From positions 1 to 50,840 of the forward strand of contig JACUUV010000019.1 of the NCBI GenBank assembly GCA_014859095.1: a stretch of 50,840 bases of DNA. Direction: 5' to 3'. The DNA comes from Clostridia bacterium (GTDB lineage Bacteria > Bacillota > Clostridia > Peptostreptococcales > Acidaminobacteraceae). The translations under genes were made by a program, and so were the position numbers. Position 1 is the first letter of the stretch. Every line of letters begins with the position of its first letter. The notes under the pieces were generated by a model. It was given only the letters and a program-made list of their open reading frames with translations. It had not been told where the DNA came from and did no database searches. Positions 4,565-9,639 of this stretch are shown here, in pieces.

Positions 4565-5494
4565 ATGAAAATTTATTTTGAGCTTGAAAATATCGATCCT
4601 GAAATCGAAGAGACTTCCATTGCCTTAGGTACATTTGATGGCCTTCACATCGGACACATGGAAATTATTGAATATATGAAAGAAGCTGCTGAGGAAAAAA
4701 GTCTTAAAACCTTTGTCTATGCTTTTTCAAATCATCCAAGAGAAATATTGACCCCTGATCATATTCCGCCAAGAATCATGGATGTGGATGAGAAAGTCCA
4801 AATTTTTACAAGAGCTGATATCGACTACTTAGCCCTTGTCAGATTTGACGAATACCAGCTGGGTGTCGAACCAGAAGATTTTATCAAAGATGTGTTGATT
4901 GACAAGATGAACATGAGACATCTGACTGTAGGTTATGACTATCGCTTCGGGAAAAACGCTAGAGGCGATGTCAAGATGCTAATGGATTTCGCTCCAATTT
5001 TCGGATACACTTTCGAGATTGTACAACCAATAATGAAGAATGACATCAGAGTTTCCTCGTCTTTGATCAGGGAACTTTTGAGCAATGGTCAGATTGAAGA
5101 AGCCAATTTCTACCTAGGAAGACGCCACTTTGTAAAAGGTTGTGTGGTAAAAGGAAAAGGAATGGGAAAGGGAATGGGGATTCCAACTGCCAATCTTCGG
5201 ATCAAAGAGAATATCAGTACTATCAAACCGGGGGTATACATCACAGAAACCGTTTTAAAGGGACAAACTTATCCGAGCGCGACCAATGTTGGTTTCAACC
5301 CCACATTTGAGCAGACCGGGATTCATATGGAGACTTATATTTTGGGCATCGACAGAGAACTTTATGGAGAAACTATAGAGGTGCATTTCGTCAAACGGAT
5401 CAGAGATGAACTTAAGTTTTCTTCCGTATCAGAGCTGGTCAAAGTGATGGAAAACGACATACATCAAATGAAACTTTATTTTTCTTTACTCTGA
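4565..5494 (+). CDS. ribF: bifunctional riboflavin kinase / FAD synthetase
   Basis: RibF phosphorylates riboflavin to FMN and adenylylates FMN to FAD in the cytosol. The N-terminal nucleotidyltransferase shows TFDGLHIGH (about residues 23-31) and the later VSSSLIRELL signature near residue 162. The C-terminal flavokinase shows GKGMGIPTANL with the conserved PTAN near 210-217. The 309-residue length is typical. It begins 4 bases after truB with an AGGGTGA ribosome site and ends the infB operon; a separate rpsO promoter overlaps its last codons. Confidence 0.95.
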   Translation: MKIYFELENIDPEIEETSIALGTFDGLHIGHMEIIEYMKEAAEEKSLKTFVYAFSNHPREILTPDHIPPRIMDVDEKVQIFTRADIDYLALVRFDEYQLGVEPEDFIKDVLIDKMNMRHLTVGYDYRFGKNARGDVKMLMDFAPIFGYTFEIVQPIMKNDIRVSSSLIRELLSNGQIEEANFYLGRRHFVKGCVVKGKGMGKGMGIPTANLRIKENISTIKPGVYITETVLKGQTYPSATNVGFNPTFEQTGIHMETYILGIDRELYGETIEVHFVKRIRDELKFSSVSELVKVMENDIHQMKLYFSLL

Positions 5495-5513
5495 TATGAA
5501 ATGATGGTATAAT
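5485..5513 (+). promoter_or_regulatory. rpsO promoter
   Basis: TTTACT at 5485-5490 and a perfect TATAAT at 5508-5513 are separated by 17 bases. The -35 overlaps the ribF stop codon. The promoter leaves a leader of about 80 nt in front of rpsO. Inferred from consensus only. Confidence 0.6.
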
Positions 5514-5527
5514 TAAAAAGTTGTAAA

Positions 5528-5574
5528 CCGTATGCTTTGTTTATCGTTTCTCCGACGATCTACTAGGCTTATGG
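5528..5574 (+). promoter_or_regulatory. structured rpsO leader (candidate S15 autoregulatory site)
   Basis: CCGTATGC (5528-5535) can pair with GCTTATGG (5567-5574) at seven of eight positions, counting one G-U pair. Inside it ATCGT (5543-5547) pairs with ACGAT (5555-5559). The structure ends about 12 bases before the AGGAGG of rpsO. Ribosomal protein S15 represses its own mRNA in several bacterial groups through leader structures. That this leader is such a site is an inference from position and foldability. Confidence 0.4.
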
Positions 5575-5602
5575 ATAAATTAAAATAAGGAGGATCATTA
5601 AA

Positions 5603-5869
5603 ATGATTACAAAAGAAACCAAAAGCAATATTATCGAAAAGTTCAAGACTCATCCAACAGATACTGGCTCACCAGAGGTCCAAATCGCTGTGTTGACTCA
5701 AAGAATCAACGAGCTCAACGAGCATTTGCAAATTCACAAGAAAGACCATCACTCTAGAAGAGGTCTTTTGAAAATGGTCGGCAAGAGAAGAAGTCTCTTA
5801 AAGTATCTGAAAGACAATAATCTTGAGAAATACAGAATATTGATTGCGGAACTCGGTTTAAGAAAATAA
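5603..5869 (+). CDS. rpsO: 30S ribosomal protein S15
   Basis: S15 is a primary 16S rRNA binding protein of the small subunit platform. The 88-residue product has the family pattern: [22 protein letters not shown] near the N-terminus, [12 protein letters not shown] in the middle, and [13 protein letters not shown] at the end. A strong AAGGAGGA ribosome site precedes the ATG. The gene stands alone between its own promoter and an intrinsic terminator, just before pnp, as in many bacteria. Confidence 0.98.
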
Positions 5870-5879
5870 TTATCAGGAC

Positions 5880-5910
5880 AGGCTTGACACTAGTCAAGCC
5901 TTGTTTTTTT
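5880..5910 (+). terminator. intrinsic terminator after rpsO
   Basis: AGGCTTGAC and GTCAAGCCT form a perfect 9-bp stem with a 4-base loop, followed by TGTTTTTTT. Confidence 0.9.
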
Positions 5911-5933
5911 ATTTCCAGGTCAAGTTTTAACCC

Positions 5934-5962
5934 TTTCTATTTCCACAATATTTTAGTATAAT
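5934..5962 (+). promoter_or_regulatory. pnp promoter
   Basis: A perfect TATAAT at 5957-5962 has a weak -35 (TTTCTA, 5934-5939) at 17 bases. It lies just upstream of the long hairpin leader, so the transcript would begin around 5969 and contain the whole structure. Confidence 0.5.
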
Positions 5963-5983
5963 AAATGAGTAGTAATTCAACTT

Positions 5984-6081
5984 TTGATGTTGGAATTTAT
6001 CTTAATATCCTACTTATTTGAAGTGAATTTTTCGAAGAGAAAGATTGACTTGAAATAAGTAGGGTAAATTCTGGACATCAA
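5984..6081 (+). promoter_or_regulatory. very long hairpin in the pnp leader
   Basis: The leader folds on itself over 98 nt. Paired blocks from outside in: TTGATGT 5984-5990 with ACATCAA 6075-6081; GAATTTA 5993-5999 with TAAATTC 6065-6071; CCTACTTATTT 6009-6019 with AAATAAGTAGG 6053-6063; AAGT 6021-6024 with ACTT 6048-6051; then eight more pairs 6026-6033 with 6039-6046 (one G-U) around a 5-base loop. That is 37 pairs, ending 9 bases before the AGGAGG. In E. coli the pnp leader is an RNase III-cut hairpin through which PNPase represses itself; a similar role here is inference. Confidence 0.65.
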
Positions 6082-6100
6082 GTCAAATTTAGGAGGCTTT

Positions 6101-8239
6101 ATGATGGAAAATAACGGTTGCCAATCTGTTGGTAGCGAAAATGCAAGAAAAGTATACACTTTCGAAAAAAAGATAGCAGGAAGACCTTTCAAAGTGGAAA
6201 TCGGTAAAATAGCGAATCTCGCAAATGGTTCAGCACTTTTACATTATGGTGAGACTGTAGTTTTGGTTACAGCGACCGCATCAAGAAAACCAAAAGCAGG
6301 CATTGATTTCTTCCCACTCACAGTTGATTTTGAAGAGAAATTATATTCAGTAGGTAAAATTCCTGGAGGATTCATAAAAAGGGAAGGTAGACCTTCAGAT
6401 CGAGCAACATTAACTGCAAGATTGATTGATAGACCGATGCGACCAATGTTCCCTGACGGTATGAAAAATGAAGTACAAGTAGTTGCTACCGTTATGTCTG
6501 TAGACCAAGATTGTTCACCGGATACAGTTGCGATGAACGGAGCATCCATCGCACTCGGGATTTCAGACATTCCATTTGATGGTCCTGTTGCAGGTGTTAC
6601 AGTTGGTTATGTGGATGGCGATTATGTGATTAACCCGACTATTGAAGAAAAAGAAAAATCTTCTCTCAATCTCATAGTGGCAGGAACAAAAGATGCTGTT
6701 GTCATGGTAGAAGCCGGTGCAGATATCCTATCTGAAGAAATAGTTCTAGGTGGAATCATGCGTGGACATGAAGCGATAATTGAAATTTGTGAATTCATAG
6801 ATGAAATTGTTGCAGAACTCGGTAAAGAAAAGTTTGATATCAAGCTGCCAGAAATCGATTTGGAATTTGTAAATGAAATAGAGCAATTTCTTCTTGAGCG
6901 TATGAGTCAATCGGTTCGAATTCAAGATAAACATGATAGAAATGAAGCCCTTGATATTTTAAAAGATGATATGATGGCATATTTTGAGGAGACTCATCCT
7001 GATGAGAAGGATTTCTTGAAAGAGCAATTCAAGGCGATTGAAAAGAAAATCGTAAGAAAGATGATCATCAATGAAAATATCAGACCTGATGGAAGAACAC
7101 CACTTGATATCAGACCTATTTCATGTGAAATCGCGTTATTGCCAAGAACCCACGGGTCAGGGCTTTTCACCAGAGGACTTACACAAGCTCTTACAATCAC
7201 TACACTTGGAGCTTTGGGAGAGTCACAAAGAATTGATGGTTTAGACCTTGAGGAAACCAAACGTTACATGCATCATTACAATTTCCCACCTTATTCAGTT
7301 GGTGAAGTTGGTATGAGCAGAGTCAACAGACGGGCCGTCGGTCACGGAGCACTTGGTGAGAGAGCACTTTTACCAGTAATTCCATCAGAAATTGATTTCC
7401 CATATACAATCAGATTGGTTTCCGAAGTTGTGACCTGTAATGGTTCAAGTTCTCAAGCCAGCATCTGTGGCAGTACTTTGTCACTTCTTGATGCAGGTGT
7501 GCCAATCAAGGATTCAGTGGCAGGCATCGCAATGGGACTGATCCAGGAAGAAGGAAAAATCTCAATCTTAAGCGATATCCAAGGTATGGAAGATGCTCTC
7601 GGTGATATGGACTTTAAGGTTGCCGGCACAAAAAATGGCATCACTGCTCTTCAAATGGATATCAAAGTCGATGGACTCAACAAAGAGCTTCTTCAAAATG
7701 CGCTTGAACAAGCTCGTGTCGGAAGATTGCATATTCTCGAAAAAATGAACGCTGTAATCAGTACGCCAAGAGCTGAAATGTCCAAATATGCTCCAAGAGT
7801 ATTCCAGATTAAAATCAATCCTGATAAGATTAGAGACGTCATTGGACCAGGTGGTAAAGTCATTACAAGAATCACATCCACACACAACGTCAAGATTGAC
7901 ATTGATGACAGTGGTATCGTTTTGATTACTGCTGCTGATGGTATTGGCGGAGAAGCCGCGCTTAGAGAAATCGAATCCATCGTAAAAGTACCTGAAGTAG
8001 GTCAAGTATACAAAGGTAAAGTATCTCGTATATTGAAATTCGGCGCTTTCGTAGAACTTGGTTTTGGCAAAGAAGGTCTCTGTCATATTTCACAAATCGA
8101 CACCAAGCGAATTGCCAAAGTTGAAGATTCAGTGAACATTGGTGATGAAGTGATGGTCAAAATTATTGAAATTGATGATCAAGGTCGTATCAATCTCTCT
8201 AGAAAAGTCTTATTGGAAGAAGAAAATAAAGAATCATAA
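6101..8239 (+). CDS. pnp: polyribonucleotide nucleotidyltransferase (PNPase)
   Basis: PNPase is a phosphorolytic 3'-5' exoribonuclease of mRNA decay. The 712-residue protein has the full domain order: RNase PH 1 (from about residue 20), helical linker, RNase PH 2 (about 320-545), KH with IGPGGKVITRI near 581, and S1 with YKGKVSRILKFGAFVEL near 630. The start is the first of two adjacent ATGs, 4 bases after AGGAGG. A second ATG follows directly. The gene has its own promoter and a strongly folded leader and is followed by an M16 peptidase gene, the usual Firmicute neighbour. Confidence 0.97.
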   Translation: MMENNGCQSVGSENARKVYTFEKKIAGRPFKVEIGKIANLANGSALLHYGETVVLVTATASRKPKAGIDFFPLTVDFEEKLYSVGKIPGGFIKREGRPSDRATLTARLIDRPMRPMFPDGMKNEVQVVATVMSVDQDCSPDTVAMNGASIALGISDIPFDGPVAGVTVGYVDGDYVINPTIEEKEKSSLNLIVAGTKDAVVMVEAGADILSEEIVLGGIMRGHEAIIEICEFIDEIVAELGKEKFDIKLPEIDLEFVNEIEQFLLERMSQSVRIQDKHDRNEALDILKDDMMAYFEETHPDEKDFLKEQFKAIEKKIVRKMIINENIRPDGRTPLDIRPISCEIALLPRTHGSGLFTRGLTQALTITTLGALGESQRIDGLDLEETKRYMHHYNFPPYSVGEVGMSRVNRRAVGHGALGERALLPVIPSEIDFPYTIRLVSEVVTCNGSSSQASICGSTLSLLDAGVPIKDSVAGIAMGLIQEEGKISILSDIQGMEDALGDMDFKVAGTKNGITALQMDIKVDGLNKELLQNALEQARVGRLHILEKMNAVISTPRAEMSKYAPRVFQIKINPDKIRDVIGPGGKVITRITSTHNVKIDIDDSGIVLITAADGIGGEAALREIESIVKVPEVGQVYKGKVSRILKFGAFVELGFGKEGLCHISQIDTKRIAKVEDSVNIGDEVMVKIIEIDDQGRINLSRKVLLEEENKES

Positions 8240-8269: not shown

Positions 8270-8305
8270 AGAGATAATATTTGCAAATTTGCGAGTATTA
8301 TCTCT
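8270..8305 (+). terminator. hairpin between pnp and the M16 peptidase gene
   Basis: AGAGATAATA (8270-8279) and TATTATCTCT (8296-8305) form a perfect 10-bp stem around a loop containing the small palindrome GCAAATTTGC. The tail CTTATGTTG is a poor U-tract, so it may be a weak terminator or an mRNA end-protecting structure. Confidence 0.45.
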
Positions 8306-8343: not shown

Positions 8344-9639
8344 TTGGTAAAGAAAATACAGCTAGACAACGGTATGGTATTGGTTTGTCAAAAGTTGGAA
8401 GGTTATAAATCTGTCACCATCGGTGTATGGGTCAAGACAGGATCCTCAAATGAGACCAAGCATGAAAACGGTATGTCTCATTTTATTGAACATATGGTAT
8501 TTAAAGGAACAGAAGGCAGATCTGCCAAGGACATAGCCATGGAAATTGATGGTATCGGCGGAGAAATCAATGCTTATACAGCAAAAGAATGTACATGTTA
8601 CTATACCAAAACAATGGGTGCCGATTTGGAAGTCGGTTTGGATATACTCTCAGATATCACCATTTATCCCAGTTTTTTAAGTGATAACATAGAGACTGAA
8701 AAAACGGTCATTTTGGATGAAATCAGTATGTATGAAGATTCAGCTGAAGAATTGGTCGATGACATCATCAACGGGATCACTTTCAAAAATCATCCTCTAT
8801 CTTTGCCAATCTTGGGTACAAAAGAGACCATTATGTCATTCACTCGAGAGAAAGTCATAGAATTCTATGAGAATCACTACAGACCGGATAATATGATTAT
8901 TTCCGTAGCAGGTGATTTTGATTTTGAAGATCTTGAGTCATTAGCCAATAAGTATTTCGGAACTTTTAAAAGAGCGGTCCATAAAGAATTTGAAACGCCG
9001 CATAAACCTGAATTCAATTGGGGATACAACTCCAAGAAAAAGGATTTTGAACAAATTCAAGTCGCAATGGAATTTCCAGGAATACCGTTTGACCATGAAC
9101 TCAGTTATGATATGACGCTCCTCAGTAATCTTTTTGGTGGAACAAACAGTTCCAGATTGTTTCAAAGCATTCGGGAAGATCGTGGACTTGCTTATTCCAT
9201 CTACAGTGAACCCAGTTTTTATGATGAGATTGGTACGCTCAGTGTCTCTTTTGGAGTCGCTAAAGAAAATCTTAAGGAAACCATAAAAATCCTCAGTAGA
9301 GAAATTAATCGACTGATCTATAAAGGGTTTTCTGAAAAGGAAATTGATCACGCGAAAAGTCATCTTCGTGGAAGTTTTGTTCTGGGGCTCGAGGGAAGTG
9401 ATCAACATATGGATCTGATCGGTAGAATAGAAATGTTCGCCCATAAGGAAAAAAGTGTTGCGGATATGCTTAAGAAAATTGAAACCGTATCATTGGAAGG
9501 CGTTCAATCATTGGTTCGTCATTGTTTCACAAGTGGTAATTTTTCACTTGCCATAGTGGGCGACATCACAAATGAAGAAGTCGAAAAACTCTACGGAGAA
9601 ATGAAAAACAGTATAAATCAACAGGGGGTAAAACAATGA
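8344..9639 (+). CDS. M16 family zinc peptidase (mlpA/ymxG type)
   Basis: This is a processing-peptidase-like M16 protease. The inverted zinc motif HFIEH lies at residues 46-50, with the downstream acidic ligand region EISMYEDSAEE near 125. The C-terminal half holds the second M16 fold with FGGTNSSRLFQSIREDRGLAYSI (about 262-284), the RGLAY part being typical. The start is TTG, chosen because GAGGTG sits 5 bases upstream and the homologous N-terminus matches. The 431 residues are normal. Its TGA overlaps the dut ATG (ATGA). Substrate is unknown; in bacilli the gene is also placed after pnp. Confidence 0.9.
   Translation: MVKKIQLDNGMVLVCQKLEGYKSVTIGVWVKTGSSNETKHENGMSHFIEHMVFKGTEGRSAKDIAMEIDGIGGEINAYTAKECTCYYTKTMGADLEVGLDILSDITIYPSFLSDNIETEKTVILDEISMYEDSAEELVDDIINGITFKNHPLSLPILGTKETIMSFTREKVIEFYENHYRPDNMIISVAGDFDFEDLESLANKYFGTFKRAVHKEFETPHKPEFNWGYNSKKKDFEQIQVAMEFPGIPFDHELSYDMTLLSNLFGGTNSSRLFQSIREDRGLAYSIYSEPSFYDEIGTLSVSFGVAKENLKETIKILSREINRLIYKGFSEKEIDHAKSHLRGSFVLGLEGSDQHMDLIGRIEMFAHKEKSVADMLKKIETVSLEGVQSLVRHCFTSGNFSLAIVGDITNEEVEKLYGEMKNSINQQGVKQ

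Follow-up and report, generated by a model that had tools for sequence, protein, structure and literature searches.

A conserved hairpin in the pnp leader of a family of Clostridia as a candidate RNase III/PNPase control element

The leader of pnp, the gene for polynucleotide phosphorylase (PNPase), forms a long hairpin that recurs directly before the same gene in most genomes of a family of Clostridia. There is strong evidence for the structure and for its association with pnp; the mechanism is proposed, and the element is apparently a new form of an already known kind of control. Leader-hairpin feedback of PNPase is a classic example of autoregulation at the RNA level and has been described in a handful of scattered bacteria. 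With its clear covariation, its tie to one gene and its invariant core, the element of this family of Clostridia defines a new system. It would allow the repeated origin of such control to be tested, as well as the reading of sequence by PNPase or another protein, and it is a candidate RNA family for Rfam.

The window, that is, the whole stretch of DNA analysed, comprises 50,840 nt of contig JACUUV010000019.1 from a Clostridia bacterium of the family Acidaminobacteraceae. The features around pnp are collected in Table 1. The ORF upstream of pnp is taken to be rpsO from its own sequence and from the rpsO-pnp gene order. An in-frame ATG at 6104 is as possible a start for pnp as 6101, and the encoded PNPase has RNase PH domains, a PNPase domain, KH and S1. 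Transcription of pnp is expected to begin at about 5968-5970, as placed from the putative -10 box. The sole -35-like hexamer, TTTCTA, is weak and sits 17 nt upstream of this box. The site fails the rules of the promoter scan and is not among its calls because a good -35 is wanting. TTAG precedes TATAAT in 13/14 loci of the window's subgroup. A promoter-like site (5485-5513, TATAAT) is also found before rpsO, which has a leader of about 80 nt. No Rfam match was found in this leader (5485-5602), a possible undescribed S15 leader. Downstream of pnp, a 16-pair hairpin at 8270-8305 precedes the next ORF (8344-9639) and resembles a terminator with a poor T run.

Table 1. Features of the rpsO-pnp region in the window.
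Feature	Position	Strand	Basis
rpsO (ribosomal protein S15), gene 5' of pnp	5603..5869	+	ORF list
Intrinsic terminator 3' of rpsO; stem 5880-5901, then T run	5880..5909	+	terminator scan, sequence
Putative pnp -10 box TATAAT, after TTTTAG	5957..5962	+	sequence
pnp leader hairpin, 40 predicted pairs	5983..6082	+	fold, covariance-model matches, covariation
Outer arm, 5' side; sequence varies among genera, pairing maintained	5983..5991	+	
Conserved 5' strand GAATTTAT; partner is the TAAATTC end of the 3' strand	5993..6000	+	
5'-side bulge TATCTTAA, 8 nt in predicted fold	5998..6005	+	
Conserved 5' core TCCTACTT	6008..6015	+	24/24 rows of alignment A6
Upper stem and loop; both sequence and length vary (28-72 nt, 29 loci)	6016..6056	+	
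Conserved 3' strand AAGTAGGGTAAATTC; most relatives have AAGTAGGATAAATTC	6057..6071	+	per-position counts, 29 loci and 24 rows of A6
Outer arm, 3' side	6074..6082	+	fold, arm-swap test
pnp ribosome-binding site AGGAGG, outside hairpin	6091..6096	+	sequence, fold
pnp, polynucleotide phosphorylase, 712 aa	6101..8239	+	ORF list

Folding of positions 5967-6084 (+) gave a single long unbranched hairpin at 5983-6082 with 9+5+14+4+8 = 40 pairs. The initial annotation had described a 98-nt hairpin of about 37 pairs at 5984-6081, which is correct to a base at each end and to a few pairs, and had placed its end beside the ribosome site. It does end there, 8 nt before AGGAGG (6091-6096) and 18 nt before ATG. 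The folded stretch has an energy of -43.1 kcal/mol compared with a mean of -20.0 for shuffled sequences (z -7.75). None of 200 shuffles was as stable. The initial annotation had called the perfect match of several separate stem blocks unlikely by chance. The stem as a whole is imperfect, with an 8-nt 5'-side bulge (5998-6005), two 1x1 G.G mismatches and a basal 1x2 internal loop. The same hairpin was obtained with wider folds. With 5950-6110 the stem base is slightly rearranged (z -4.74), and with 5967-6130, which includes the ribosome site and first codons, the hairpin is unchanged (z -5.35). GAATTTAT forms 5 pairs with the TAAATTC end in the predicted fold and 7 in the covariance model. Because the stretch is palindromic as DNA, the antisense strand folds well too (z -5.44) and energy cannot tell the strand. 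It is gene context and conservation that decide for the + strand. We conclude that the pnp leader hairpin is real.

To define its occurrence, pnp of this genome, a draft of 2.98 Mb, was compared with that of 60 related genomes and of 41 genomes of the family, itself included. Fourteen leaders of the window's subgroup served to build covariance model R1. Searched against 37 family loci, it found 14/15 unseen leaders of the other subgroup, ten at E <= 0.0073 and four at E 0.13-0.28; the one missed was L144. At E <= 1, R1 matched 24/41 family genomes, 23 of them at pnp and one weakly elsewhere (G004, E 0.58). Model R2 was built from ten other-subgroup leaders aligned by R1, from which it inherits structure and alignment, and it recovers the 14 leaders that had gone into R1 with scores of 56 to 73 bits. 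With R2, 28/41 family genomes match at one place each (a complement match at the same place was not counted). All 28 places lie directly before pnp, which in G014 is cut by the contig end. Weaker, divergent matches were found in G010 and G028 (E 0.0035 and 0.0049). The element thus precedes pnp in 30/38 family genomes with a readable leader. The leader is unreadable in the other three, in two of which no good pnp was found (G017, G026), while in the third the pnp match begins at residue 76 (G025). No match to the element was found in eight family genomes (G008, G012, G018, G022, G030, G033, G035 and G061).

Searches beyond the family used stricter filters, which are able to lose weak matches. 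With these, R2 matched 0/352 genomes of the order outside the family. In a class sample of 391 genomes, partly overlapping the order sample, the sole matches were two family members, G000 and G016, with 0/389 among the others. Among 299 genomes sampled across the phylum, the matches were G000 and a weak one off pnp (G991, E 0.047). In a tree of 53 PNPase sequences, two changes explain presence and absence in 37 family rows, which 0/500 shuffles matched; the deep branches of this tree are poorly supported and the family is not one clade as drawn. The simplest story is that the element was lost in the lineage of genera g6, g16 and g20 and in G012. Its restriction to a single place per genome, only at pnp, argues for gene-specific control.

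Covariation was examined in alignment A6, which was fitted to the model and covers 24 of the 30 carriers; the lower-scoring leaders of three g7 genomes, G015 and two g8 genomes are not in it. Paired cells make up 97.0% of A6 and both-sided changes occur in 16/28 pairs; because A6 was fitted to the model, these counts lean towards structure. Five measures were compared with 500 shuffles, none of which reached the observed value of any of them, and when partners were displaced by one, two or three columns pairing fell to 51.1% or less. A first alignment of 27 leaders (A1) was discarded because MAFFT had displaced the two groups by four columns; it was replaced by A3, then by the model-fitted A4 and A6.

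An arm-swap test, independent of A6, was carried out on 29 loci. These were chosen by CCTACTT and AAGT[AG]GG[AG]T[AG]A, with TTTAT as the anchor (different words were used for L134), so that selection was on the core words and not on the arms. Inner arms average -12.8 kcal/mol with their own partners and -5.5 with swapped ones; the corresponding values for outer arms are -11.4 and -5.8. When each of the 15 genera was represented by a single locus, 0/20,000 permutations were as low for the inner arms and likewise for the outer arms. Taken singly, 4/29 inner and 6/29 outer arms have more than 10% of swapped partners that do as well. Covariation in related leaders had been proposed in the initial annotation as a check, and the leaders clearly pass it, which supports a selected RNA structure in the pnp leader. 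Together these results show that the predicted structure is under selection as RNA. The leader has two traits of conserved cis-regulatory RNAs: its covariation exceeds both the shuffled and the slid controls, and its gene association is constant across genera.

The leaders share a common design. A variable outer arm comes first, and GAAUUUAU follows it. A bulge separates GAAUUUAU from (U)CCUACUU, above which stands an upper hairpin that also varies. On the 3' side, AAGUAGGAUAAAUUC, which is nearly fixed, and the closing outer arm follow without a break. In A6, UUUAU, UCCUACUU and AAGUAGG have one letter at each position, and in the remaining 3' strand at most 4 sequences deviate at any single position. 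The 3' strand likewise shows few departures in the 29 loci, where the constancy of the words is partly by choice because the loci were picked by them. A6, which was picked by score, gives the same fixed letters. Spacing is looser. Within the window's subgroup 8 nt separate UUUAU from CCUACUU, a distance that ranges from 5 to 41 nt in the other leaders; genus g7 has an extra small hairpin inside this stretch, and other relatives vary in bulge length. From the AAGTAGGATAA word to the start codon there are 29-47 nt in 27/29 loci and 19 nt in the other two. Ten pairs are invariant in A6, seven in the core (CCUACUU/AAGUAGG) and three lower-stem A-U pairs. Pairs that never vary are uninformative on pairing, yet they show that the letters themselves are constrained. 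Thus selection maintains the structure of the leader hairpin and, in part, its very letters. Neither a fixed core nor a bulge would be needed in a generic RNase III substrate, and their presence suggests a sequence-specific partner in addition; we infer that they form a recognition site for PNPase or such a partner. The fixed core and bulge were absent from the initial annotation.

The enzymes for control of the E. coli type are available. RNase III is encoded in the window's genome (260 bits) and in 37/41 family genomes; it was not found in G001, G012, G018 and G025, all drafts. G001 is a near relative that carries the element, and its draft has about 330 contigs. RNase III occurs in 6/8 genomes without the element (the exceptions are G018 and G012), so its presence does not track the element. 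PNPase has two S1 domains, in tandem, in 7/7 genomes of the lineage without the element (L224-L230; genera g6, g16 and g20) and one S1 domain in 25/25 tested carriers, five of the 30 carriers being outside the test; the PNPase of G012 is cut by the contig end in this count. This is a hint that the leader and the RNA-binding end of PNPase belong together, and only a hint because it reflects one evolutionary event in one lineage. In genus g6, the RNase III match contains one in-frame TGA (G008:C54:6311-6967, G026:C122:161-817, G035:C73:6264-6920), which may simply be the gene end, or something else.

Jarrige and others reportedly found in 2001 that the E. coli pnp leader hairpin is cut by RNase III, after which PNPase represses itself. 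The leader of E. coli K-12 also lies between rpsO and pnp as a single long hairpin, and its predicted fold is of similar build, 37 pairs over 97 nt with a 4-nt bulge on the 5' side and a run of 12 pairs. It ends 55 nt before the start codon, in contrast to 18 nt before ATG here. No R2 match was found at the K-12 locus (L231), and the three core words are absent from the 260 bases before its pnp. By this comparison the clostridial element is unrelated in sequence to the E. coli leader. RNase III cleavage is known in E. coli (PMC8708148, in the part of the text available), whereas here both cleavage and feedback are proposed.

The initial annotation had presented such control as enterobacterial. 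That is right for E. coli, but the system is wider. According to the accessible text of PMC8708148, PNPase repression by RNase III is conserved in Borrelia burgdorferi, Streptomyces coelicolor, Streptococcus pyogenes and Campylobacter jejuni besides E. coli. The available parts of PMC10126417 and PMC8708148 state that RNase III cuts the E. coli pnp leader and the S. coelicolor rpsO-pnp hairpin and thereby affects PNPase. In S. coelicolor, promoters lie before rpsO and in the intergenic region, and RNase III cleavage contributes to pnp control (PMC10126417, same portion). Like the one studied here, it is an intergenic hairpin of a Gram-positive bacterium. It is cut at two sides of a 4/4 internal loop, as far as the available text goes, while the main irregularity here is a one-sided bulge. 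Actino-pnp (RF01688), a pnp leader motif of Actinomycetales, has been listed as a cis-regulator since 2010 (PMC2864571, in the part available). It too is a conserved structured RNA named for pnp, but its host group is different, and it had no match in the whole window at gathering score or in 5480-6200 at E up to 5. Ribosomal leader motifs such as the S15 leaders are also cis-elements beside this pair of genes; unlike them, the present element lies after rpsO and before pnp. The Rfam S15 model (RF00114) matches the E. coli locus and has no match in the window.

No Rfam 15 family matched the window at gathering score, nor loci L183 (the window's own genome), L195, L209 and L194, while a control scan at the E. 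coli locus found SraG and the S15 leader. Fourteen sub-threshold matches in 5480-6200 (E up to 5), mostly to microRNA, were rejected, as all are far below thresholds and look like chance matches to a long hairpin. The initial annotation regarded such a system as little described in Clostridia, and open-access titles and abstract openings yielded no description of this pnp leader element, a search that leaves its absence from print unproven. In a word search of the main text available, surveys of structured RNAs and a survey of ribosomal leaders contained neither pnp nor PNPase.

Control of the E. coli type is the best explanation of the element because of its position, exclusivity and design and the enzymes available. 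As this type of control implies, a long pnp leader hairpin is found here, and RNase III and a PNPase with KH and S1 are encoded. By this analogy, the leader hairpin is probably a cis-acting element through which RNase III and PNPase control pnp. RNase III would cut the long stem near the mRNA 5' end, PNPase would then remove or bind the exposed 5' strand, and with abundant PNPase the pnp mRNA would be translated less or decay faster. RNase III requires little sequence, so it does not by itself explain the seven invariant core pairs and the near-fixed 3' strand. Since the fixed core is left unexplained, a direct reader of sequence, PNPase or another protein, is a serious rival or an added layer. 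PNPase via KH-S1, or an RNA-binding protein yet to be named, might bind the core and the U-rich 5' bulge as an operator, with the stem only presenting the site, repression being translational and RNase III secondary or absent. The unvarying UUUAU, UCCUACUU and AAGUAGG (24/24 A6 rows), the constant core pairs and the absence of the element from the lineage with a second S1 domain in PNPase are what such an operator would lead one to see. Yet a UUUAU-CCUACUU stretch of 5 to 41 nt, with a small hairpin in one genus, is unusual for a tight site, and the ribosome site is not within the hairpin, so that we consider this reading rather unlikely. Equally tentative is its specific form, in which the KH-S1 part of PNPase binds the fixed duplex core and the UUUAU bulge. 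PNPase would then be a specific self-repressor and not just the nuclease acting after RNase III, and RNA and protein would have coevolved, with the element dropped where PNPase gained a second S1.

RNase III/PNPase control also has to be weighed against readings without feedback. Hairpins at the 5' end protect Gram-positive mRNAs, and in most loci that have a -10 box the predicted start is at most about 40 nt from the UUUAU anchor, as expected if the hairpin shielded pnp mRNA from 5'-end-dependent decay (RNase J, pyrophosphohydrolase). A plain shield requires neither an invariant core nor about 40 pairs. Moreover, no -10 box was found before the element in g2, g18 and g5, and in g18 the element closely follows the rpsO terminator and therefore need not be 5'-terminal. 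A shield alone is thus quite improbable. The palindromic, invariant core just downstream of a putative promoter could also be the DNA site of a transcription factor, but its half-sites are 28 to 72 nt apart, its outer and inner arms covary and there is no second copy in the family genomes, which makes this reading very improbable. Long hairpins are often repeats, and one might have come to lie before pnp by chance. A mobile or repeated hairpin was rejected, since R2 matches are single in each genome and lie at the same gene family-wide, and leader BLAST finds no second copy; copy number refutes it, and we give it practically no weight. In the window's own genome, leader BLAST returned the leader itself, its complement and short weak matches (best E 0.02, at the ribosome-site end). 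A switch formed by pairing between the ribosome site and 5'-strand UCCUA was dropped, as the ribosome sites of several relatives lack UAGGA. Masking of the ribosome site, or an RNA thermometer, is not favoured because AGGAGG lies outside the hairpin.

Leaders of pnp from outside the family were folded for comparison. The 76 leaders have a median z of -1.56; 66/76 lie above -4, so such a leader is not general, and 10/76 are at or below -4. At this threshold (z <= -4) 1/67 rpsO leaders and 17/23 family pnp leaders are found. Of the six family leaders that fall short, two (L131, L135) had their hairpin cut by the 110-nt window of the fold and four are without the element. On visual inspection, the rpsO terminator accounts for the low z of several of the ten non-family leaders. 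Others among them look like true leader hairpins of different sequence, and long pnp leader hairpins may therefore have had repeated origins.

Another pnp leader hairpin, with arms TTAGCAnTnAA ... TTnATTGCTAA, was seen in L047, L075, L080 and L086 (L086:600-715), four loci of other Clostridia (a Clostridia MAG, a Ruminococcus sp., an Oscillospiraceae MAG and a Clostridiales MAG). Part of it is also present in L072 and L085, and it seems to represent a pnp leader class of its own. GTCGAA words, which in our estimation resemble Spo0A boxes, occur before pnp in L037, L067 and L077, and GTAGGAAATAAT words occur before pnp in L168, L169 and L172.
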